From assembly GCA_026004675.1 (NCBI GenBank), contig BPJP01000006.1, forward strand, positions 248,001 to 312,000: a stretch of DNA of 64,000 bases, given 5' to 3'. Positions 7,118 to 28,468 of the stretch are shown piece by piece. Position 1 is the first letter of the stretch; each line of letters starts with the position of its first letter. The DNA is from Gemmatales bacterium. GTDB lineage: Bacteria; Planctomycetota; Planctomycetia; Gemmatales; Gemmataceae. A program made the translations under genes and the position numbers. The notes below the pieces were generated by a model that searched no databases, was not told the origin of the DNA, and was given only the letters and a program-made list of their open reading frames with translations.

Positions 7118-8899
7118 ATGACTAACGTTCGTGTTGCGTTCGCGCTTGGCGTTGTTTTCTGGCCCATCATTCACATTTCCACTGCCGCTGCCCAAGATCC
7201 GAAGCTTCCTCCACCTCCATCCGGGAAACAATGGAAGTTGGTATGGGGGGACGAATTTAATGGAACCAAGCTGGATTTGACCAAATGGACCATCCGCACG
7301 ATGAAGGTTGGGCGAAACAAAACATGGACACCGAAAGCAATCTCGTTGGATGGGAAGGGGCATCTCGTAATTCGAACTTATCGTGAGAACGGTCAGGTAC
7401 GAAACGGAGCGATTTGGACAAACGCCGACAATGGCGATGAGACGAAGGCGAAATTCCGGAGAAAGTTCGGTTATTATGTCGCCCGCGTTCAATTCCATAA
7501 GCAGCCAGGTCACTGGCCTGCATTCTGGCTTTACAGCGGGGCCGCCTGGCACAAAAAATACGTGGGATGGAAGGAAGGTGGTAAGGACGGCACCGAAATT
7601 GACATTATGGAGAAACCCTGGTTGGATAACCGCGTCAATCATGCTCTGCATTGGGATGGATACGGGAAAGGCCACCAGCATGTAGCCCGACAAGTCACTG
7701 TCGATGGCATCATGAAAGGCTGGCATACTTTCGCCGTTCATTGGACAAAAGACAAGTACGTCTTTTATATTGACGGCAACCAGACGTGGGAAACGAGTGC
7801 CGGTGGTGTATGCCAGGTGCCACTACTAATTCAGATTTCTGATGAGACTGGTCTTTCCTGGGCCGGTGACATTAACAAGGCGAAATTACCTGACTATTTC
7901 CTTGTTGACTATGTGCGCGTTTATGATCTAGAGCCGATTCCGCCCGATCCCCAAAAGCCCTATAAAGGCATTGCCTGGAAAATTCCAGGACGTATTCAAG
8001 CAGAGGATTTTGACATCGGCGGCGAAGGTGTTGCCTTCCATGATGTGGACAAAGAAAACCAAGGTCAGAACAATTACAGAGGTAACCTACCCGTTGATCT
8101 TGAAAACTCCCTTGATGACGATGGAACGCCGAATGTTGGGTACACGAGCGACAACGAATGGCTCGAATATACCGTCGATGCGAGTTACGAGGGGTGGTTT
8201 GAACCCCAACTCAGGTTTGCATCAAAAAAGGTCGGCGGAGCAGAAGTAGGTCTGGAAGTTGATGGGAAGCGTGTTTGGACCATTCCCATCGGGAATACTG
8301 ATGGGTGGCAGAGTTACCAGACTCTTGCAGCGCCACTTGTATATCTGAAAAAAGGCAAACATGTCATTCGTCTTGTATTTGTAAAAGGAGGCGTAAATTT
8401 AAACTGGATTGAGTTCCTTCCCAAATACCAACAACAGCCGTTTAAGTTTGTCCGCCAACTTCCTGGCATGATCGAGGCTGAAGATTTTGACGAAGGCCCA
8501 GGCGGTTCCTTCGAAATTGACACTCGCCGGCCGAGCCAAGGATTCTTCTATCGTCCAAACACTGGGGTGGATCTGCAGTATTGCATGGATGTTAAACGTG
8601 GTGTAAACATTGGATACGCGATGGATGGTGAATGGGTCGAGTATACAGTAAACATCAAGGCTGATCAAGAATACACACCGGTGTTCCGGGTTGCGAGCCA
8701 AACTGGAGGAGCAGATCTTCGTGTCCAGGTAGACGGCAAACCTATCATTTGGTCGATTCCTGTCAAGGCAACAGGAGGGTGGCAAAAATACGAAACCCTC
8801 AAGGCTCCGCCTGTTAAGCTTCCAAAGGGAGAACACGTAATTCGTATTACCTTTGTGAAGGGTGGCGTCAATTTCAATTGGTTTGGATTTTGGAAATAG
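7118..8899 (+). CDS. Secreted GH16 glycoside hydrolase with two CBM6-like domains
   Basis: 593 residues with GGAGG before the ATG. Order: signal peptide (to about 25), a GH16 beta-jelly-roll domain (about 35-275) with the catalytic motif EIDIME (160-165; nucleophile E160, acid/base E165), then two family-6-like carbohydrate-binding modules starting near 288 and 447, each opening with an IQAEDF/IEAEDF strand. GH16 enzymes cleave beta-1,3/1,4 glucans or galactans such as laminarin, agar or carrageenan; the exact substrate is not decidable by eye. The gene is visibly more A+T-rich than its neighbours and lies between a full and a truncated copy of a ceramidase-like gene, which suggests arrival by transfer. 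Confidence 0.9.
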   Translation: MTNVRVAFALGVVFWPIIHISTAAAQDPKLPPPPSGKQWKLVWGDEFNGTKLDLTKWTIRTMKVGRNKTWTPKAISLDGKGHLVIRTYRENGQVRNGAIWTNADNGDETKAKFRRKFGYYVARVQFHKQPGHWPAFWLYSGAAWHKKYVGWKEGGKDGTEIDIMEKPWLDNRVNHALHWDGYGKGHQHVARQVTVDGIMKGWHTFAVHWTKDKYVFYIDGNQTWETSAGGVCQVPLLIQISDETGLSWAGDINKAKLPDYFLVDYVRVYDLEPIPPDPQKPYKGIAWKIPGRIQAEDFDIGGEGVAFHDVDKENQGQNNYRGNLPVDLENSLDDDGTPNVGYTSDNEWLEYTVDASYEGWFEPQLRFASKKVGGAEVGLEVDGKRVWTIPIGNTDGWQSYQTLAAPLVYLKKGKHVIRLVFVKGGVNLNWIEFLPKYQQQPFKFVRQLPGMIEAEDFDEGPGGSFEIDTRRPSQGFFYRPNTGVDLQYCMDVKRGVNIGYAMDGEWVEYTVNIKADQEYTPVFRVASQTGGADLRVQVDGKPIIWSIPVKATGGWQKYETLKAPPVKLPKGEHVIRITFVKGGVNFNWFGFWK

Positions 8900-21190: not shown

Positions 21191-21260
21191 GAGACTGATC
21201 CTCCTGGCTGCTAGCCGAACGGCTTGGGCCGCGCCCCGATCTTGGTAATATGCACTGGCC

Positions 21261-21632
21261 CTACGATGGTTTTGAGAGGATGATATTCTGTGCATAGTAA
21301 TTGCAGTAATCCGTCACGCCGCAAATTGAACAGAGCGGGTTTTGCTCCAAGCAAATGCCGCTGGCAAGCCCAAACTCTTGTGACTCTACTTGACCGTAGG
21401 CCACGAAAACAATGTCAATATAGCGAATAGGGTGGCCTGTTGCCTGAGCAAACTTCCGCCCTTGGATTTCGGTCTTTAGAAGTTGCTGGTCGCTTTCAAT
21501 AAGGCCCAGCCGCTGAAAAATACGGCTTATCACTCTGTCTGGCTTGAGAACAGGCAATCCTATATCCGTCAGAAAGTGATAAGTTGTAATCCTGCCCAAG
21601 CCTTTGAAGCGATACTCCAGTTCTTCTTTTAG
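21261..21632 (-). pseudogene. DNA glycosylase, C-terminal part, cut by an IS element
   Basis: Codes for about 123 residues that continue the frame interrupted at 23113. It contains FKGLGRITTYHFL, a helix-hairpin-helix region (VLKPDRVI), and a cysteine loop C-x6-C-x2-C-x5-C (CLEQNPLCSICGVTDYC) like the 4Fe-4S loop of EndoIII/MutY-type enzymes. Removing the IS and one copy of TTAG joins the two parts in frame to a 268-residue HhH-GPD/Tag-like DNA glycosylase, an enzyme of base-excision repair. Confidence 0.75.
21629..21632. repeat. Target-site duplication TTAG (left)
   Basis: The four bases next to the left IS end are TTAG; the same four follow the right end at 23109-23112. This fits a single transposition event. 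Confidence 0.75.
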
Positions 21633-23108
21633 CAGCCCGTTGTTTTAGTCGGTTTTGTGGTGAAACGGCGGCGAGGCGGCGGGAATATCCTTCCTCAATG
21701 AACATCGACCCAGCAAGGTCGCGGACGTCTCCAATACATCACTATGGAAAAATAGAACATCATAATGTAAAAATAGAGAAGCCTAAAAGCATACATAAGG
21801 CCCTGTAGGCTCCGCGGCGTGCCCACTCCGAACAACTTCCGCAGGATCAGACTCAGGTTCCGCGCCGCCACCTGGATCAAATATCGCTTGGTCACCTTCT
21901 CCAGTCCGCGTAACCAACATCTACGCGCCCCGCCGGTCTCACACACATGGGCAAAACTTCGTTCCGTCAACTCGCTCCGCAGTCGTTGCAGCCGTTTGCC
22001 CCGCGCGCCACGCACGCGACGACGGTTCCCGTACACCGCCGCCCGATACTCCGGCGGCTTGTCGGTCCAGCGATGACGATGTCTCCTTTTCGGCTCCGGA
22101 ATGTACGTCCGCCACTTCATGAACGCGCACATCTCCAGCGTGCTCGCCTTGTGATACCCCTTGTCGGCCACCGCCTCCTCGATCTCCACCTTCTCGCCAA
22201 CGTTGATTTGCGCCTGCATCACACTGTCGCACAGCGTCTGCGCGTCACTATGATCGGCCGGCGAGATCGTCGCCGCCAGCACCAGATCGCTCTGCATATC
22301 GACCACATGCTCGGCCTTGTACGCCAAGCGCGTCGTGCCGTCCTTCATCCGCGCAATCCGGCTATCGGCGTCGGTTTTCGACTCCCATTCCTCGTTGCTC
22401 ACCTTCTTGTCCTTGCGGCTTTGGTCGAAGCGACGCAGGTCCTCATCATTGGCTTCTTTGATCCCTTCCGCTTCCGCCAAACGACGCAAGTACTCCTTAT
22501 AGTCTTCCCCCGTCTCCTTGCGGACGATCGACTTCATTGCCGCGTTCGCCTCCAGCATGGTCGAGTCCACAGCCACCGTCTTGCCGTGGAGAAGCTTCTT
22601 GTCGGCGGCCAGACGCAACACAAACGCGAAGACTTGCTCGTGCACCTCCAGCGGCAACCGTTGCTGCGTCCGACTCATCGAAGAATGATCCGGCGTCCTC
22701 TCTTGCGGACCGTAGCCCAGAAATTCCGCCAGCGATCGGCTATCGCTGCACCGCCAGGCAATGCCACGCTGCGACGACACCCCCTCGAAATAGCCCACCA
22801 GGATCATGCGAAAGTAGACGCCCGGCGGAATCGACGGCCGACCCATCACCGCATGATAGAACGGAGCACACAGCCGTTCGACCCAGTCATCGAAACCGGC
22901 TTCCGCCAGCAACTGGTTCAGTTTTCTGTAAAAGGGGTGACCCGGCGATTTCGGCAAGTCCGTGGTCGCCACCCACATCTCTTGTTGTTCGCGCTTGCGT
23001 TTACCCAGCGCCATTGCGACTCCTGTCGTTCGTCCCTGAAATCAGTGAATAACACCCGCCAATATACCACGCCTGTCAAGCCCCCGAACCGACTTTTTCA
23101 ACGGGCTG
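21633..23108 (-). mobile_element. IS1182-like insertion sequence, complete
   Basis: 1,476 bases bounded by inverted ends. The outer ten bases CAGCCCGTTG are identical at both ends, and 18 of the first 22 match (a TTTT in one replaced by AAAA in the other). It is flanked by 4-bp direct repeats TTAG and holds one intact transposase gene. The ends, duplication and open reading frame suggest a recent and possibly still active copy. Confidence 0.85.
21695..23014 (-). CDS. IS1182-family DDE transposase
   Basis: 439 residues, AGGAG before the ATG. The N-terminal part has the IS1182/IS5-like DUF772 region (MGRPSIPPGVYFRMILVGYF), followed by the catalytic DDE domain with AVDSTMLEANA (first Asp), the ISPADHSDAQTL block (second Asp) and a C-terminal KRYLIQVAARNL segment. 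A charged insertion of about 60 residues (KEYLRRLAEAEGI onward) lies between the first and second Asp, as in IS1182 members. No frameshift is seen, so it could be functional. Confidence 0.92.
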   Translation of the reverse strand: MALGKRKREQQEMWVATTDLPKSPGHPFYRKLNQLLAEAGFDDWVERLCAPFYHAVMGRPSIPPGVYFRMILVGYFEGVSSQRGIAWRCSDSRSLAEFLGYGPQERTPDHSSMSRTQQRLPLEVHEQVFAFVLRLAADKKLLHGKTVAVDSTMLEANAAMKSIVRKETGEDYKEYLRRLAEAEGIKEANDEDLRRFDQSRKDKKVSNEEWESKTDADSRIARMKDGTTRLAYKAEHVVDMQSDLVLAATISPADHSDAQTLCDSVMQAQINVGEKVEIEEAVADKGYHKASTLEMCAFMKWRTYIPEPKRRHRHRWTDKPPEYRAAVYGNRRRVRGARGKRLQRLRSELTERSFAHVCETGGARRCWLRGLEKVTKRYLIQVAARNLSLILRKLFGVGTPRSLQGLMYAFRLLYFYIMMFYFSIVMYWRRPRPCWVDVH

Positions 23109-23112
23109 TTAG
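23109..23112. repeat. Target-site duplication TTAG (right)
   Basis: Direct repeat of the TTAG at 21629-21632, immediately outside the right IS end. Confidence 0.75.
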
Positions 23113-23547
23113 GAGCATCAGGTTTTCAAAAGAAGTAGATGGCGAGAAAGAGTCAAGGTAGACTTGGAACGAGCCATATTCGCTGACGATGCTTTTAAAA
23201 ACCTTGGCATCTTCGATACAGGCTTTAACCTTCCGCCTATTGTTGATCATTTTGGGGTCACTGAGAATTTCGTCGGCCTTGCTCTCATTGTAACCTGCGA
23301 CAGTTTCGTAATCAGGAAAGTATTTGCGGATCACATTCAGTTTGGCACTGACTGTTGCGGCTCGAAACCCTGCATAGAAGACAACGTAAACCAGTATCCA
23401 GTAGTAATCGGCGTCAGAGAACACCTTGCTTTCAAGGTGTTTGAACTCATCAAGGTTAGCACGAATTCTATCATCGGAGAGATTAGCTGAACCCACGCGG
23501 ATGAGGGTTGATTCGACTTTCTCGAAAATAGCTTTGTAGTCTTTCAT
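23113..23547 (-). pseudogene. DNA glycosylase, N-terminal part, cut by an IS element
   Basis: Starts at the ATG at 23547 and codes for about 145 residues before running into the IS (which adds the short tail TAR and a stop). The segment MINNRRKVKACIEDAKVF followed by EYGSFQVYLDSF is the pattern of 3-methyladenine DNA glycosylase I (Tag)-like proteins. The frame joins exactly to the C-terminal part at 21632 when the IS is removed. It was probably a cassette gene: an attC-like site lies just upstream at 23585-23681. Confidence 0.75.
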
Positions 23548-23584
23548 ACACCAACTTTAGAAGGACTTTGACTTGGATGCAGTG

Positions 23585-23681
23585 GGCTAACAATTCAGCT
23601 CACCTGCCGCGGGGGCAGCAAGGAGGATGAACCCTGGAATCACGTGATGCCGCCCCGGTCAGGTGCAGCGTCTGGTTTGGC
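23585..23681 (-). other. attC-like recombination site (97 bp)
   Basis: The ends are GGCTAAC (23585) and GTTTGGC (23681), inverted core-like heptamers. Inward of these the two arms are complementary over about 20 bases with bulges (GCTCACCTGCCG against CGGTCAGGTGCAGC). This folding, with unpaired bases in the arms and a long variable centre, is that of integron attC sites. The cores deviate slightly from the consensus, so confidence is moderate. It separates the glycosylase gene from the gene at 23741. Confidence 0.5.
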
Positions 23682-23740
23682 GTCTTGCGTGTCCAGCCAA
23701 TTGGCCCCTCCTTCCAATCCGCTGTGGCCCGGTCCACCGC

Positions 23741-24058
23741 TCAGTCGGTCGCCTCGGGCAGTTCAAACGAGAACAGGTACTCCTCCCCGTCCTCATGCCA
23801 GACCCCGACGTACATGCCGCCGACATCGGCCCATCGGGCCTCTACCCGGTTGCTCTTCCCGCGAATCGAGCTAACGCCCTCATACCGATGGCCGTGTGCC
23901 GCCCCGACGATCAGGTACGGACCGTACCCGCCGGGGATGTCGAGCACCATCTCCCCAGGCCGGACCAGGACTGAGCCGGTGAGGAGCGAGTCTTCGTTTG
24001 CGCCGAGGAAGTGAAACTGAACATCATCTCGCCGCGTTCCGACGCTGACAGGGTTCAT
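23741..24058 (-). CDS. Hypothetical protein, cassette-type gene
   Basis: 105 residues from the ATG at 24058, which has GGAGG at good spacing; the open frame extends to 24085 without a better start. The sequence is soluble and beta-rich with YGPYLIVGAAHGHRYEG and WADVGGMYVGVWHEDGEEYLF. I recognise no family and see no signal peptide or membrane helix. It sits between two attC-like inverted repeats on the minus strand, like a single-gene integron cassette. Confidence 0.6.
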   Translation of the reverse strand: MNPVSVGTRRDDVQFHFLGANEDSLLTGSVLVRPGEMVLDIPGGYGPYLIVGAAHGHRYEGVSSIRGKSNRVEARWADVGGMYVGVWHEDGEEYLFSFELPEATD

Positions 24059-24110
24059 GGGGAGCCTCCAACCGTTGACTCGCACCGCGTGTCTGCGGCC
24101 GAACTCATTA

Positions 24111-24160
24111 TTAACTTGCGCCCTCCGGCAAGCAAACCTTGCGCGGCGGCGCTAGTTAAC
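24111..24160 (-). other. attC-like inverted repeat
   Basis: Two arms, TTAACTTGCGCCCTCC (24111-24126) and GGCGGCGCTAGTTAA (24145-24159), pair at about 14 of 15 positions with an 18-base centre. It lies just upstream of the cassette-type gene at 23741-24058. The cores are GTTAAC/TTAATA rather than the strict heptamer consensus. Confidence 0.4.
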
Positions 24161-24245
24161 ACCGGATGGACCACCCACCCGGATCTTCTTCAAACCTATA
24201 CCTGGTCGCGACTTCCGGCGACCAGGCAAAACTTTTCCGCTCCGC

Positions 24246-24273
24246 GTTATCTAGCGCTGCGGCGCTAGATAAC
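24246..24273. repeat. Perfect 12-bp palindrome with 4-base loop
   Basis: GTTATCTAGCGC, then TGCG, then GCGCTAGATAAC. The arms are perfect. The right arm is close to the right arm of the inverted repeat at 24111-24160 (GGCGCTAG-TAAC). It lies between the recombinase remnant and the cassette gene, where an attI or attC would be expected. Confidence 0.6.
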
Positions 24274-24299
24274 AAAATAACGGCACCTTGCGCCGGCAT

Positions 24300-24414
24300 C
24301 TACTTGCGGTCCAGCGGGGTGGTGACGCCGCGACCGACTTTGTTCAATACGCGTCTGTAAATCATCGTCGTCCTAGCGGCTTTGTCCCTGGCAGTTTTGC
24401 ACCGCTCGGATGTC
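24300..24414 (-). pseudogene. C-terminal remnant of an integron-integrase-like tyrosine recombinase (copy 1)
   Basis: On the minus strand the codons give DIRAVQ, then after a small shift ARTTMIYRRVLNKVGRGVTTPLD and a TAG at 24300. DIRTVQELLGH...TTMIYTHVL...GGxGVRSPLD is the C-terminal signature of integron integrases and their relatives, with the catalytic Tyr in TTMIY, which is present here. The rest of the enzyme is missing: a palindromic repeat abuts it upstream. Confidence 0.6.
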
Positions 24415-24847
24415 CTGCCCCTCACCCCGGCCCTCTCCCGGAGGGAGAGGGAGTGCCGGAACCTATTGGCCGTGACGCGATCCCAAGGATCGCTCTTTCG
24501 CACAGCGGCGCGATTTGCCTTCGTAAGCATCGTGCCGCGCCTGTCGTGTCCGCGTCATCTACATTGTCGTGAGATAGGCCGCGCGAATTCCCTTCGGGAG
24601 CATCGTGCCGCACTGGTAATGGCGGACGTGCAGTCCGTTCGGACAACCTCGGCGTCGGGCTGTCCGGGAGCAAACCCAAGGGTTTTCGGCGCTGGTTGCT
24701 GATCGCGAACATGGGGCGATTCCGTCGAACTGTACTAAGTTTCATTCGATACTAGTCACGTCGATATTGACCCGCAACAAAAAATTTTTCGGCAACCCAA
24801 AGGCCATGCGATGGACATGCTTGATTCGATCGGGATGGAACTCGACG
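24360..24847. repeat. ~490-bp direct repeat, copy 1
   Basis: Very similar over its whole length to 27105-27603 in the same orientation. It contains, in order, the recombinase tail, the CCCTCACCCC palindrome, a non-coding stretch, and the first codons of the terminase fragment, after which copy 1 diverges at 24848. Confidence 0.9.
24418..24453. repeat. REP-like palindrome (copy 1)
   Basis: CCCTCACCCCGGCCCTCTCC followed by GGGAGGGAGAGGG; CCCTCTCCC and GGGAGAGGG arms form a hairpin. It matches a palindromic repeat type widely dispersed between genes in many bacteria. A second copy is at 27172-27206. Confidence 0.7.
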
Positions 24848-24989
24848 CTCGGGTGGTTCGCCCTGAAAGGCGGCGACGAGACCTGCTGCGATGAAGGAGG
24901 TCCCGTCGGGTCCCGTCGAGCAGGACACACTTCAAGTGGCCTGGTTTCCGCCCGCCCTGACCAACGGGAATGGCGTGTCACCCGCGGTG

Positions 24990-25000
24990 ATTTGTTAGGC
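24990..25000 (-). other. Single attC core-like heptamer
   Basis: On the minus strand GCCTAAC (25000-24994) followed by AAATC lies 6 bases after the stop codon of the gene at 25007, the position and sequence of an attC left core. I cannot find its partner before the 24847 repeat boundary, so the site may be truncated. Confidence 0.35.
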
Positions 25001-25006
25001 AACATT

Positions 25007-25303
25007 TCACGGCGGCTGGAAGTACGGTGTCGGCTGATTTGATGGTCTTGCCTCTTGCACTTCCATCCATTCAACAACTGTTGATTCAACACAGTTCAGA
25101 GCCATATTGCGAGATTTGAGGTCGTGGTGACGGATGAAGTCTTGGCGGAACTCATTGAGCGCATCTTGAAGCGAATCTTGCAACCGCGCCGCGTACATCC
25201 AATGATAGTGAAGATCGAAGAGCGCAGAGTCAGTTTCGCAGAAAAAAGTGCGATGCCAATCCGTAACTTGAATGGGAACGCGAAAGTATCGGATTGCTGC
25301 CAT
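25007..25303 (-). CDS. Hypothetical 98-residue protein, second gene of a cassette
   Basis: Starts at the ATG at 25303 with GAGGTGATC before it; the open frame upstream of this overlaps the protease gene. The start lies 10 bases after the protease stop, so the two are probably translated from one transcript. The protein is soluble and His/Trp-rich at the N-terminus (VTDWHRTFF, FDLHYHWMY) with a central helix (RLQDSLQDALNEFRQDF). No family recognised. The stop codon is followed at once by an attC core-like heptamer. Confidence 0.6.
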   Translation of the reverse strand: MAAIRYFRVPIQVTDWHRTFFCETDSALFDLHYHWMYAARLQDSLQDALNEFRQDFIRHHDLKSRNMALNCVESTVVEWMEVQEARPSNQPTPYFQPP

Positions 25304-25313
25304 TGCGATCACC

Positions 25314-26330
25314 TCATCTATAAAGTGTGCGGATCGCTTTCGCGGCACCAGCAGCATTGGCAGAGTACCATCGGTACTTTGTCGCCATTGCATCGCGCGC
25401 ATCAATCGCAAATCCGAGATTATCCGCCCCGATCACTTTCCACGTATTGATGCCGATCCAGTAATACCGATCTTTGCCCGTTCTTACAAAGAGTGGTCCG
25501 CCGCTATTGCCCGGATTGATCGCCGCGTCGGTTTGAATCAAGCGATGGCGTTCGGGTGTTTGTTGCTCACGTAGGGCACTGATTCGACCGAAGGTTTGCG
25601 TGCCCTGAAAACCAAGTGGGGATCCAACCGCCACAACTTCGTCGCCCTCCGCCAGAGCTAACGATTGTGAAAAAGGCAGAATGACATAGTCCTTTCCTTC
25701 GGTCAGCCCAGACGCATCCACTTCGAGCATTGACAGATCCAACGAACCATCTTGGTCAGCAAAACGCAGCACTGGTTTCCGTTTGCCGGATGCAAAGACA
25801 ACTTCTAGTTGGTAACTAACAATATCCGGAACTCCGTCAGTCCACGAATCGCTTTGGCGTAGCTCAGCAAGGCCCAAGCAATGGCTGTTACTGATAAGGT
25901 ACAGCTTTCCGGATTTGAGTTTGATGACGCCCGCACTTCCGCTCCATTGTTGCGTTTGATTTCCGAACAAGTCCGCTTCGCTCCACGAACCGTAAACGGT
26001 GTGAGCTGCCAATTTGAGGGAGGCTCTATCTATTCCATTTTTCGACGTGGATGACGATGGAATTAAGAACCACGCTACGATAGCAACGACAACTCCTCCA
26101 CCAGCAAGCATCAACGCATCTTGTTTTTCATCATCCTTCTCAGCGTTGACGGCGACGATGGCACAGATCGCTGCGGCGACCGTGGCTGCAGCGATGACGC
26201 ACCAAAGAACGATGCTGAAAAACGTGGCCCATCCAATCCATGAGATCACGACGAAGAGTACAACGATCGCCGCGACACCGGGCCATTCCCGGTCGTCGTG
26301 TGTCGGTGGGTTGGGTTCCGGAACGTTCAT
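25314..26330 (-). CDS. Membrane-anchored trypsin-like serine protease
   Basis: 338 residues. Two or three N-terminal membrane helices (about 18-62 and 72-90) are followed by an S1-type protease domain with the full triad: H150 (SNSHC), D198 (SLDLS) and S276 (NPGNSGGPL). It resembles DegP-like S1C proteases without a PDZ domain. The start follows the GTTAGGC core of the attC at 26352-26410 by about 20 bases, exactly the spacing of integron cassette genes. It pairs with the 98-residue gene downstream. Such protease cassettes may act in defence or stress; that is speculation. Confidence 0.85.
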   Translation of the reverse strand: MNVPEPNPPTHDDREWPGVAAIVVLFVVISWIGWATFFSIVLWCVIAAATVAAAICAIVAVNAEKDDEKQDALMLAGGGVVVAIVAWFLIPSSSTSKNGIDRASLKLAAHTVYGSWSEADLFGNQTQQWSGSAGVIKLKSGKLYLISNSHCLGLAELRQSDSWTDGVPDIVSYQLEVVFASGKRKPVLRFADQDGSLDLSMLEVDASGLTEGKDYVILPFSQSLALAEGDEVVAVGSPLGFQGTQTFGRISALREQQTPERHRLIQTDAAINPGNSGGPLFVRTGKDRYYWIGINTWKVIGADNLGFAIDARDAMATKYRWYSANAAGAAKAIRTLYR

Positions 26331-26351
26331 TGCGGACCTCGATGTTCTGTT

Positions 26352-26410
26352 GCCTAACGGCTTGGCGATTAGCGGCGGCGCGCAGCGCCGTCCGCTGCAT
26401 GCTGTTGTTA
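26352..26410 (-). other. attC site (59 bp), best example
   Basis: On the minus strand it begins TAACAACAGC, where TAA is also the stop codon of the upstream gene, and ends with the consensus core GTTAGGC. The inner arms GCGGACGGCGC and GCGCCGCCGC pair with one extra unpaired base, as the extrahelical bases of attC do, around a 3-base loop. Overlap of stop codon and site, the core heptamer and the bulged stem together make this the strongest integron site in the window. Confidence 0.65.
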
Positions 26411-26995
26411 CACGCTGTCATGCTCGCTCAGGTATTGGCGTCCCTTTTCAGAGATCTCCCATATGCCGCGCGGGCTGCCGCTCTTGAGAAGGCCCTCGTT
26501 CACCATGGAATTCCGTGCCCATTGAGCAGCGTTTCGCCATCGGAGGTTATGCGGGTCGGAAGCCAGGGGCTCAAAATCCACGTCTCGGAGGATCCCGTTC
26601 ATCTCCGCGCGCACTTCCTCAAGCACGTCTGAGACCTGTCCAGAACCGCCACGACGAACGAGGACGCGCAGGATTGGGATGTAGTACGAATCCTCGGGTG
26701 TTCGGAGACCGCGTTGCAGCCGGCCAAGGTTCCGACGGCTTTCCTTTGTTTCGGCATCCTCTGTTTCTTCGTCGGCAGCCGGAACCAAGCGATCCCACTC
26801 ACGCCGGAATGCAGCGAGCTTGTCCCGATACGCGGTCAGGTGAGCTGCCAGTTCGAGGGCTTCGCGAGCGCGATCATAATCACGGGCTTCAAATGCTCGC
26901 GACCCGACTCTGTTGGTAAAGTCAATCTCTGTCTCGATTTCCTCGAGTAGAATCTCGAATGCGGCTACTACATTCGTCGGTTTGTTCTTGGTCAT
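26408..26995 (-). CDS. Mrr_N-type winged-helix protein, cassette gene
   Basis: 195 residues. The N-terminal half is helical and charged (about 1-95). The C-terminal half has ILRVLVRRGG onward, RWRNAAQWARNSMVNEGLL and GIWEISEKGRQYLSEH, the winged-helix pattern found at the N-terminus of Mrr-type restriction enzymes. Here it stands alone without the nuclease domain, so it is more likely a DNA-binding regulator than a restriction enzyme. The stop codon is embedded in the attC site, and another attC-like site lies 22 bp upstream of the start codon. Confidence 0.7.
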   Translation of the reverse strand: MTKNKPTNVVAAFEILLEEIETEIDFTNRVGSRAFEARDYDRAREALELAAHLTAYRDKLAAFRREWDRLVPAADEETEDAETKESRRNLGRLQRGLRTPEDSYYIPILRVLVRRGGSGQVSDVLEEVRAEMNGILRDVDFEPLASDPHNLRWRNAAQWARNSMVNEGLLKSGSPRGIWEISEKGRQYLSEHDSV

Positions 26996-27017
26996 CGCGT
27001 CGACCCTCTCGCTGTCC

Positions 27018-27065
27018 GCCTAACGACGTTGGGCATCGTCCATTACGCGTTCCCCTAACTTGTTA
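27018..27065 (-). other. attC-like site (48 bp)
   Basis: On the minus strand it runs from TAACAAG to the consensus core GTTAGGC. The arms TAACAAGTTAGGGG and GCCCAACGTCGTTA pair with one unpaired base. The gene at 26408-26995 begins about 22 bases after it. Confidence 0.5.
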
Positions 27066-27068
27066 TTA

Positions 27069-27168
27069 TTAACTCGCGCCCTCCGGCAATCGAACGCGTG
27101 TGTCAATCATCGTCGTCCTAGCGTGTTTGTCACCAAGCAGCTCCTGCACCGTTCGTATGTCGTAATAG
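27069..27168 (-). pseudogene. C-terminal remnant of an integron-integrase-like tyrosine recombinase (copy 2)
   Basis: The minus-strand frame gives YYDIRTVQELLGDKHARTTMIDTRV before running into unrelated codons and a TAA at 27071. DIRTVQELLG and TTMI are the hallmark C-terminal motifs; the catalytic Tyr of TTMIY has become Asp. It is the counterpart of copy 1 but degraded differently: it keeps the upstream motif and loses the tail. Confidence 0.6.
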
Positions 27169-27603
27169 TGCCCCCTCACCCCGGCCCTCTCCCCGAGGGA
27201 GAGGGAGTGGCGGAACTTATTGGCCGTGACGCGATCCCAAGGATCGCTCTTTCGCACAGCGGCGCGATTTGCCTTCGTAAGCATCGTGCCACGCCTCTCG
27301 TGTCCGCGTCATCTACATTGTCGTGAGATAGGCCGCGCGAATTCCCTTCGGGAGCGTGATGCCGCAGCTGCAATGGCGGACGTGCAGTCCGTTCGTACAA
27401 CCTCCGCGTCGGGCTGTCCGGGAACAAACCCACGGGTTTTCGGCGCTGGTTGCTGATCGCAGACATGGGGCGATTCCGTCGAACTCTACTAAGTTTCATT
27501 CGATACTAGTCACGTCGATATTGCCCTGCAACAAAAAAAATTTTTCGGCAACCCAAAGGCCATGCGATGGACATGCTTGATTCGATCGGGATGGAACTCG
27601 ACG
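27105..27603. repeat. ~490-bp direct repeat, copy 2
   Basis: Same orientation and order as 24360-24847, with scattered substitutions and small indels. The two copies bracket about 2.25 kb holding three cassette-type genes. Recombination between them would delete that segment. Confidence 0.9.
27172..27206. repeat. REP-like palindrome (copy 2)
   Basis: CCCCTCACCCCGGCCCTCTC with matching GGGAGAGGG arm, the counterpart of 24418-24453. Confidence 0.7.
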
Positions 27604-27920
27604 GCAACGACCTCTTGCTCAAGGACTTCCCCGAAGTGGTCTATCTGATCCACGACCTGGATGGGATCGCCAATCGCTGCAAGGGACGGCTCTGCAAAGG
27701 GGAAAGAACCCACATCGGCTGGACCGCGCGAGAGATCCTTCTGCCGACCATCGCCGGCAGCACCGCCAGCGGCGCCATCATCAAGGTCGCGGGGATCACC
27801 GGGCGAATCCGCGGCATGAAGTACAAGCGAGCCGACGGCAAGACGGTCCGGCCAACGCTGGTCGTGCTCGATGACCCGAAGGTGTTGCCAAAACAGCGCC
27901 CATCGAGGTGCCCACTATGA
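27567..27920 (+). pseudogene. Phage terminase large subunit fragment
   Basis: About 110 conserved residues: DMLDSIGMELDGNDLLLKDF, GIANRCKGRL, VAGITGRIRGMKYKRADG and PTLVVLDDP. These match the ATPase half of TerL (ITGRIRGMKxKRADG and LVVLDDP, the Walker B-like Asp pair). The Walker A region upstream and the nuclease domain downstream are missing; after VVLDDP the sequence becomes unrelated. It is a remnant of a prophage. The first codons recur in the other 490-bp repeat copy. Confidence 0.65.
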
Positions 27921-28117
27921 GAGGTGCCGAAATTGGTGCCGGTCGTCTCGCGTCTAATGCGTCACAACCTGCACCAAATTGCACAGGAAGCGGCGAACGA
28001 ACGCCCGACAACGGCCTTTCCAGGATTGCCGAAACTCAAACGCAGCTAGGACGTCTTGCACCAAAGGGGAACGGATTGCATCGGCTTGCATCGGCGGACA
28101 GGATGGGAGGAAGGAAC
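27921..28117 (+). other. Island edge next to tRNA, possible integrase tail
   Basis: About 200 bases between the terminase fragment and the tRNA. One plus-strand frame reads [19 protein letters not shown], which resembles the variable tails of tyrosine integrases that end beside tRNA genes; this is weak. No other feature is seen. Confidence 0.2.
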
Positions 28118-28191
28118 TATCCCCGACAGGATTCGAACCTGTAACCTTCGGCTCCGGAGGCCGACGCTCTATCCAGTTGAGCTACGGGGAC
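28118..28191 (-). tRNA. tRNA-Arg(CCG)
   Basis: A complete cloverleaf on the minus strand: acceptor GTCCCCG with CGGGGAT (one G-U pair), D stem GCTC/GAGC, anticodon stem TCGGC/GCCGA with loop CTCCGGA (anticodon CCG), and T stem ACAGG/CCTGT with TTCGAAT loop. No encoded CCA is seen. It forms the right border of the accessory region, as tRNA genes often do for islands. Confidence 0.92.
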
Positions 28192-28468
28192 ACTCAAGCA
28201 CGTTGCTGCGGAAATCGCTCCGGGAACGTTACCGCTGGTAACCATGACAGCCTCAGCCATCCTGATTACTTGAAATTATCGCAATCCGCATGCGGATTAG
28301 CAAGGGAGCGCCATCTTCGAACCTCGAGGCCCGTTCGATTGCCAACCTTTTCCGACGCAATCCCTTTCGTTGAACTTTTCATCTGCTTGCAAGTCCGATG
28401 ATTCGACACGTTCGAATGGCAGCGGCCAAGTGATCCGTTTCACGGCCCTTTCTGTAAGCGGTTGCCGA

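Follow-up and report, generated by a model that had tools for sequence, protein, structure and literature searches.

What are the inverted repeats that separate a run of genes in this stretch of a Gemmatales genome, and what became of the integrase that would have served them? The stretch analyzed (the window, 64,000 nucleotides) lies on contig C6 of an assembly of 37 contigs and 6.03 Mb that is ~91% complete. A preliminary description read part of it as the remnant of an integron cassette array. The feature extends farther than was noted there, from ~21260 to 27603, and has two further loci elsewhere in the genome. It is almost certainly what is left of an inverted chromosomal integron, a type in which the integrase gene (intI), the attachment site attI, and the cassettes with their attC sites lie in one direction. 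Our account as a whole is that such an integron degraded, that a platform (upstream region, dead intI, and attI) was multiplied, and that cassettes moved in trans; we consider it very probable.

To find attC sites, we built a covariance model, R1, from an alignment (A2) of 19 sites, none from the studied genome. The training sites came from heuristic scans of other Planctomycetota loci in which an intact IntI is followed by an attC array. R1 is our own model and not that of IntegronFinder. It encodes the R and L pairs and the extrahelical base, and the long central loop was trimmed in three training sites. In the window, R1 found two strong attC sites and one weak site, all on the minus strand, as are the genes (Table 1). 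The preliminary reading thus survives the check proposed with it, namely whether an attC model would score these sites at all. At both strong sites, R''/L''/L'/R' and the extrahelical base lie between same-strand genes (42 and 35 bits). The best site, reported in the preliminary description as containing a stop codon, indeed has the TAA of the Mrr_N gene within its R'' box. The first version of our heuristic scan was too strict and missed this site, but it met the one at 23585-23681 independently. The third site, which is degenerate, retains its R'' box (GCCTAAC) and is truncated by the edge of a platform copy, where platform homology stops at ~24984-24987. A 17-base stub may be an attC in which R'' and R' remain and the middle has been lost. 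The five genes were said to be separated by such sites. Two good sites, a wreck, and a stub are there, but not all five genes are bounded, and one is half a gene. Compared with shuffled sequences, the fold energies of the two strong sites were not unusual (z of -1.9 and -0.8). Therefore, the case for attC rests on the model and not on energy.

Searching the whole genome (6 Mb) at an E-value below 1e-3, R1 returned 11 sites: five on contig C5, three on C8, two on C6, and one on C20. Long copies of the intI-remnant platform occur on C5, C6, and C8, which hold 10 of the 11 sites. attC sites are thus clustered at the remnant loci more than expected by chance. On C20, two attC-like sites (L135:6073-6163 and 7438-7528; 31 and 21 bits) occur at a locus without an integrase remnant and are perhaps a fourth cluster.

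The integrase gene itself is present, but dead. The window has an ~500-bp repeat, at 24349-24847 and 27094-27603, within platform copies B and A, respectively. Two degraded copies of an integrase C terminus had been noticed here, and both match TIGR02249. However, the starts of the gene are present as well (24712-24605 and 27466-27353). Other copies of the platform are on C5 (at least three pieces, one nearly whole and the rest fragments) and C8 (one), with smaller scraps on, for example, C3 and C2. Copies A and B, the nearly whole copy on C5 (C), and that on C8 (D) are 87 to 94% alike. When compared by tblastn with the intact IntI of a relative (G475), all four retain residues 1 to ~37 and the C terminus from ~257, so ~220 codons are gone. 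In all four, the C-terminal part holds a repetitive extragenic palindromic (REP)-like repeat, and in copy A the catalytic tyrosine is altered (TTMID). Copies E and F have only the beginning of intI. The deletion is common to the copies, suggesting that intI was dead before it was copied. The IntI-specific patch region is deleted in every copy, and none encodes the intact IntI, with its catalytic residues, of a complete integron. The assignment of the fragments to an integron integrase is based on the two gene ends together with attI and attC.

No intact IntI exceeded the cut-off in the ~91% complete assembly, in keeping with what the preliminary description had reported. Among 95 genomes of the family, 36 have an IntI over the cut-off, and some have several intI genes. 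We also considered a 398-amino-acid recombinase, present in three copies (C20, C22, and C28), as the missing integrase. It was rejected because positions 179 to 237 of TIGR02249 (the patch region) were unmatched and its score was below the cut-off.

An attI, which had been overlooked, is also present at the locus. The element between the end of intI and the first cassette matches copy D and two relatives, G403 (in two places) and G428. In these relatives it ends in AAG↓TTCGG or AAG↓TTTGG (the arrow marks the crossover) and is followed by different DNA. G403 has a nearly intact IntI (one internal stop) directly before this element and, on its other contig, attC sites after it. By this comparison, the element is evidently attI. 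The copy B crossover would fall between 24104 and 24103 (AATGAG↓TTCGGC). That of copy A would fall between 27059 and 27058 (AACAAG↓TTAGGG), where ~200 bp of attI has been lost and the core kept. The likeness between copies B and D runs through the entire platform and its attI as far as AATGAG↓TT, and the two sequences diverge within ~2 bases of G↓TT. In five intact integrons of relatives (L062, L067, L068, L070, and L071), attC sites lie downstream of intI on the same strand, which agrees with the common direction of integrase and cassettes proposed for this locus. At loci L115, L118, and L119, a second GTTCGG box is located 67 bases upstream of the crossover box.

The DNA that follows these attI copies differs. 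The C5 and C8 arrays contain HhH-GPD/EndIII-like, PemK/MazF-type, MazE-type, and Abi_C genes, with the PemK/MazF-type and MazE-type genes among the C5 cassettes. Such cassettes are usual for chromosomal integrons. No cassette protein is common to C5, C6, and C8, which share only platform and insertion sequence (IS) pieces. Therefore, attI copies that appear to postdate the death of intI carry different cassettes, starting at G↓TT in B and D, and an integrase acting in trans is the most likely cause. We favor such traffic after intI death, although by a modest degree. The proposed history begins with a single ancestral intI that would have lost ~220 codons and gained the repeat, after which no integrase was made. 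The dead gene, with attI and upstream DNA, would then have been copied, giving A and B in the window, at least one nearly whole copy and fragments on C5, and one copy on C8. Cassettes would have been inserted or exchanged at attI by an integrase encoded elsewhere, since lost or unassembled. Later decay might have cut one attC at a platform edge, reduced another to the stub, and brought an IS1182 element into the glycosylase gene. The system is probably inactive at present.

Table 1. Features of the integron remnant in the window (E-values of R1 are rough because its calibration was shortened)
Feature	Position	Strand	Evidence
Platform copy A (upstream region, internally deleted intI, attI remnant)	27060-27603	-	91-94% identity to copies B, C (C5), and D (C8)
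intI 5' fragment, copy A (IntI residues ~1-37)	27353-27466	-	tblastn with intact IntI of G475, E 1e-6
intI 3' fragment, copy A	27093-27302	-	tblastn E 4e-12; TIGR02249 E 7e-8
attI remnant, copy A	27058-27095	-	Aligns with attI of B, D, G403, and G428 up to G↓TT
Putative attC stub, 17 bases	27018-27034	-	Sequence GCCCAAC-GTC-GTTAGGC
Cassette 1 gene, 195 amino acids, Mrr_N domain	26408-26995	-	PF14338 (Pfam) E 2e-14
attC of cassette 1	26352-26413	-	R1 42.1 bits, E 5.9e-9
Cassette 2 gene, membrane trypsin/HtrA-like protease, 338 amino acids	25314-26330	-	PF13365 E 2e-19
Cassette 2 second open reading frame, 134 amino acids	25007-25411	-	Open reading frame list
Degenerate attC of cassette 2	24959-25003	-	R1 match 24959-25000, 12.3 bits, E ~1
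Platform copy B (upstream region, internally deleted intI, attI)	24104-24987	-	87-91% identity to C5 and C8 copies
intI 5' fragment, copy B	24605-24712	-	tblastn E 3e-5
intI 3' fragment with inserted repeat, copy B	24300-24533	-	tblastn E 5e-11; TIGR02249 E 5e-5; stop codon 24300-24302
REP-like repeat inside intI	24418-24451 (copy B), 27172-27205 (copy A)		Many copies in related genomes
attI region, copy B	24104-24299	-	Matches C8 copy, G403, and G428 as far as G↓TT
Cassette 3 gene, 114 amino acids, no assigned function	23741-24085	-	Of 297 other genomes in the class, 3 have a homologue
attC of cassette 3	23585-23681	-	R1 34.7 bits, E 6.4e-7
Cassette 4 gene 5' part, 3-methyladenine DNA glycosylase-like	23115-23547	-	PF03352 E 8e-14
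IS1182-family insertion	21634-23110	-	NF033551; interrupts glycosylase gene; CTAA duplicated at target
Cassette 4 gene 3' part	21261-21629	-	Reading resumes past IS; weak EndIII_4Fe-2S/MutY C-terminal matches

The main rival is that these were separate, older integrons with their own cassettes. Homologous recombination (gene conversion) would have carried the dead intI allele from one to another, with no capture of cassettes after its death. Several intI genes do occur in some genomes of the family. Furthermore, the attI of copy C (C5, L051:10620-10930) belongs to another type, like those of G475 and L112. As a hybrid of the dead intI with a different attI, it indicates that recombination between integrons also occurred. 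However, B and D are alike throughout and part within 2 bases of G↓TT, and conversion tracts would have to end there by chance. We regard gene conversion as a real but lesser possibility. Copy C also counts against our own account, as do three other points. The upstream ends of the platform do not coincide with attC crossovers, and movement of the platform as a cassette was rejected for this reason (C and D share DNA past a GTTGGTC box). An intact intI may sit in a gap of the incomplete assembly. Finally, cassette excision and insertion were not seen directly; the traffic is read from sequence.

The other two explanations fare much worse. A distant integrase might have inserted cassettes off target at secondary sites, making a cluster of attC sites lacking an integron integrase (CALIN) beside intI fragments that are unrelated neighbors. 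There is no intact intI nearby, CALINs are a frequent finding (PMC9024848), and insertion off target has been proposed as one way in which they arise (PMC8618304). However, an attI with conserved relatives lies directly between the end of intI and the first cassette, and its homologues accompany intact or nearly intact integrons in those relatives, so this explanation is very improbable. We give almost no weight to a reading of the inverted repeats as ordinary terminators or REP-like elements, with recombinase fragments of XerC/D type. A REP-like repeat does lie inside intI and the genome has several Xer-type recombinases, but the attC model is specific and matches at the sites, TIGR02249 is the best-scoring profile for the fragments, IntI is matched both at its start and at its C-terminal part, and attI homology was found.

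Some cassette genes and neighbors deserve comment. The glycosylase reported at 23098-23547 is glycosylase-like, but it is only the 5' part of a gene that IS1182 splits. This element has 10 near-identical full-length copies in the genome, at various places and with 4-bp target duplications mostly of the type YTAR, and we rejected the idea that it seeks attC sites. On C5, an IS1182 remnant (L051:11680-13111) separates an attC R' box (GTTAG) from platform fragment E, which begins at TTAGTACAG. Fragment E may have joined an attC at the attC crossover. The 98-amino-acid protein of the preliminary description begins inside the 134-amino-acid frame of cassette 2, for which profile searches found no family. 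Mrr_N was considered as a cassette-bound gene and rejected, since among 25 relatives an attC occurs within ~0.4 kb at one locus only (L161). Upstream of platform A is an open frame on the plus strand (27567-27920). It may resemble part of a phage terminase, but profile searches matched it to no family. A tRNA-Arg (CCG) gene (28117-28192, minus strand) is ~0.5 kb from platform A.

The attI of copy B has a fold energy of -18.3 kcal/mol (z of -3.96) and contains a palindrome at 24111-24159 (minus strand). In the family at large, the sequence just ahead of G↓TTCGG frequently finishes with a palindrome and a CTAAT-type spacer, and compensatory changes are seen in the palindrome across the family (24111-24159 and loci L114-L122, L129, and L183-L189). 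A perfect stem of at least 6 pairs adjoins GTT[CA]GG in 13 of 31 nonredundant loci versus 2.2 expected at matched positions, for which the nominal P of 9e-10 is too small because relatives are not independent. This test took every GTT[CA]GG site, with controls matched for site number, and its form was chosen after seeing the data; a first form, in which each locus contributed only its first GTTCGG, yielded 6 of 30. In 18 sites, 89.7% of pair cells were standard, and covariation was 0.370, compared with 0.154 for shuffles and at most 0.122 for slid controls, a score inflated because most sites were picked for having the palindrome. attI has been described as read in double-stranded form (PMC8946536). 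We tentatively raise a further possibility for this family, in which the palindrome would end a few bases before G↓TT and vary in a compensatory way between genera. Besides reading attI as double-stranded sequence, the integrase might recognize it in part by a hairpin, folded or cruciform, in the way that it recognizes attC, and dead platforms might keep such an attI as a docking site for an integrase in trans. A double-stranded inverted repeat bound by a pair of integrases would give the same pattern, as would a hairpin formed in RNA where the intI message ends. The covarying palindrome may be a new result. Outside class 1, attI sites have been described only poorly (PMC9024848); our comparison sketches such a site for one planctomycete family and poses a question about its structure that can be tested.

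This locus appears to be an integron caught decaying with its history readable: one intI death, copying of the platform, and differing cassettes behind each attI. It supports the view of CALINs as degraded integrons and suggests that dead platforms could still exchange cassettes. Degraded integrons, CALINs, duplicated intI pseudogenes, and inverted integrons have been described (PMC9024848, PMC2426708, PMC3607928, and PMC8618304), and the multiplied dead platform is the unusual trait. Having two attC sites separated by 2.7 kb and lacking a complete intI in the vicinity, the locus is operationally a CALIN in the sense of IntegronFinder (at least two attC sites within a few kilobases). The preliminary description had allowed for this or for the remains of a full integron; the latter, of the inverted type, fits better, because intI remnants and attI survive and the origin is visible. 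The Treponema phagedenis remnant, from a lineage in which the integron was lost, likewise retains attC sites (PMC3607928), but no intI was found there, whereas here both intI ends remain. The pseudo-integrons of Nemergut et al. (2008; PMC2426708) are similar in having intI pseudogenes, many of them attributed to intragenomic duplication. Here, however, the gene seems to have been dead before copying, and the copies keep attI with other cassettes. A close likeness in layout, here and at the relatives' loci, is to the inverted chromosomal integrons of the Treponema denticola type (PMC3607928) and of Planctomycetota, from which this one differs in that its intI is dead by internal deletion and its platform is multicopy.
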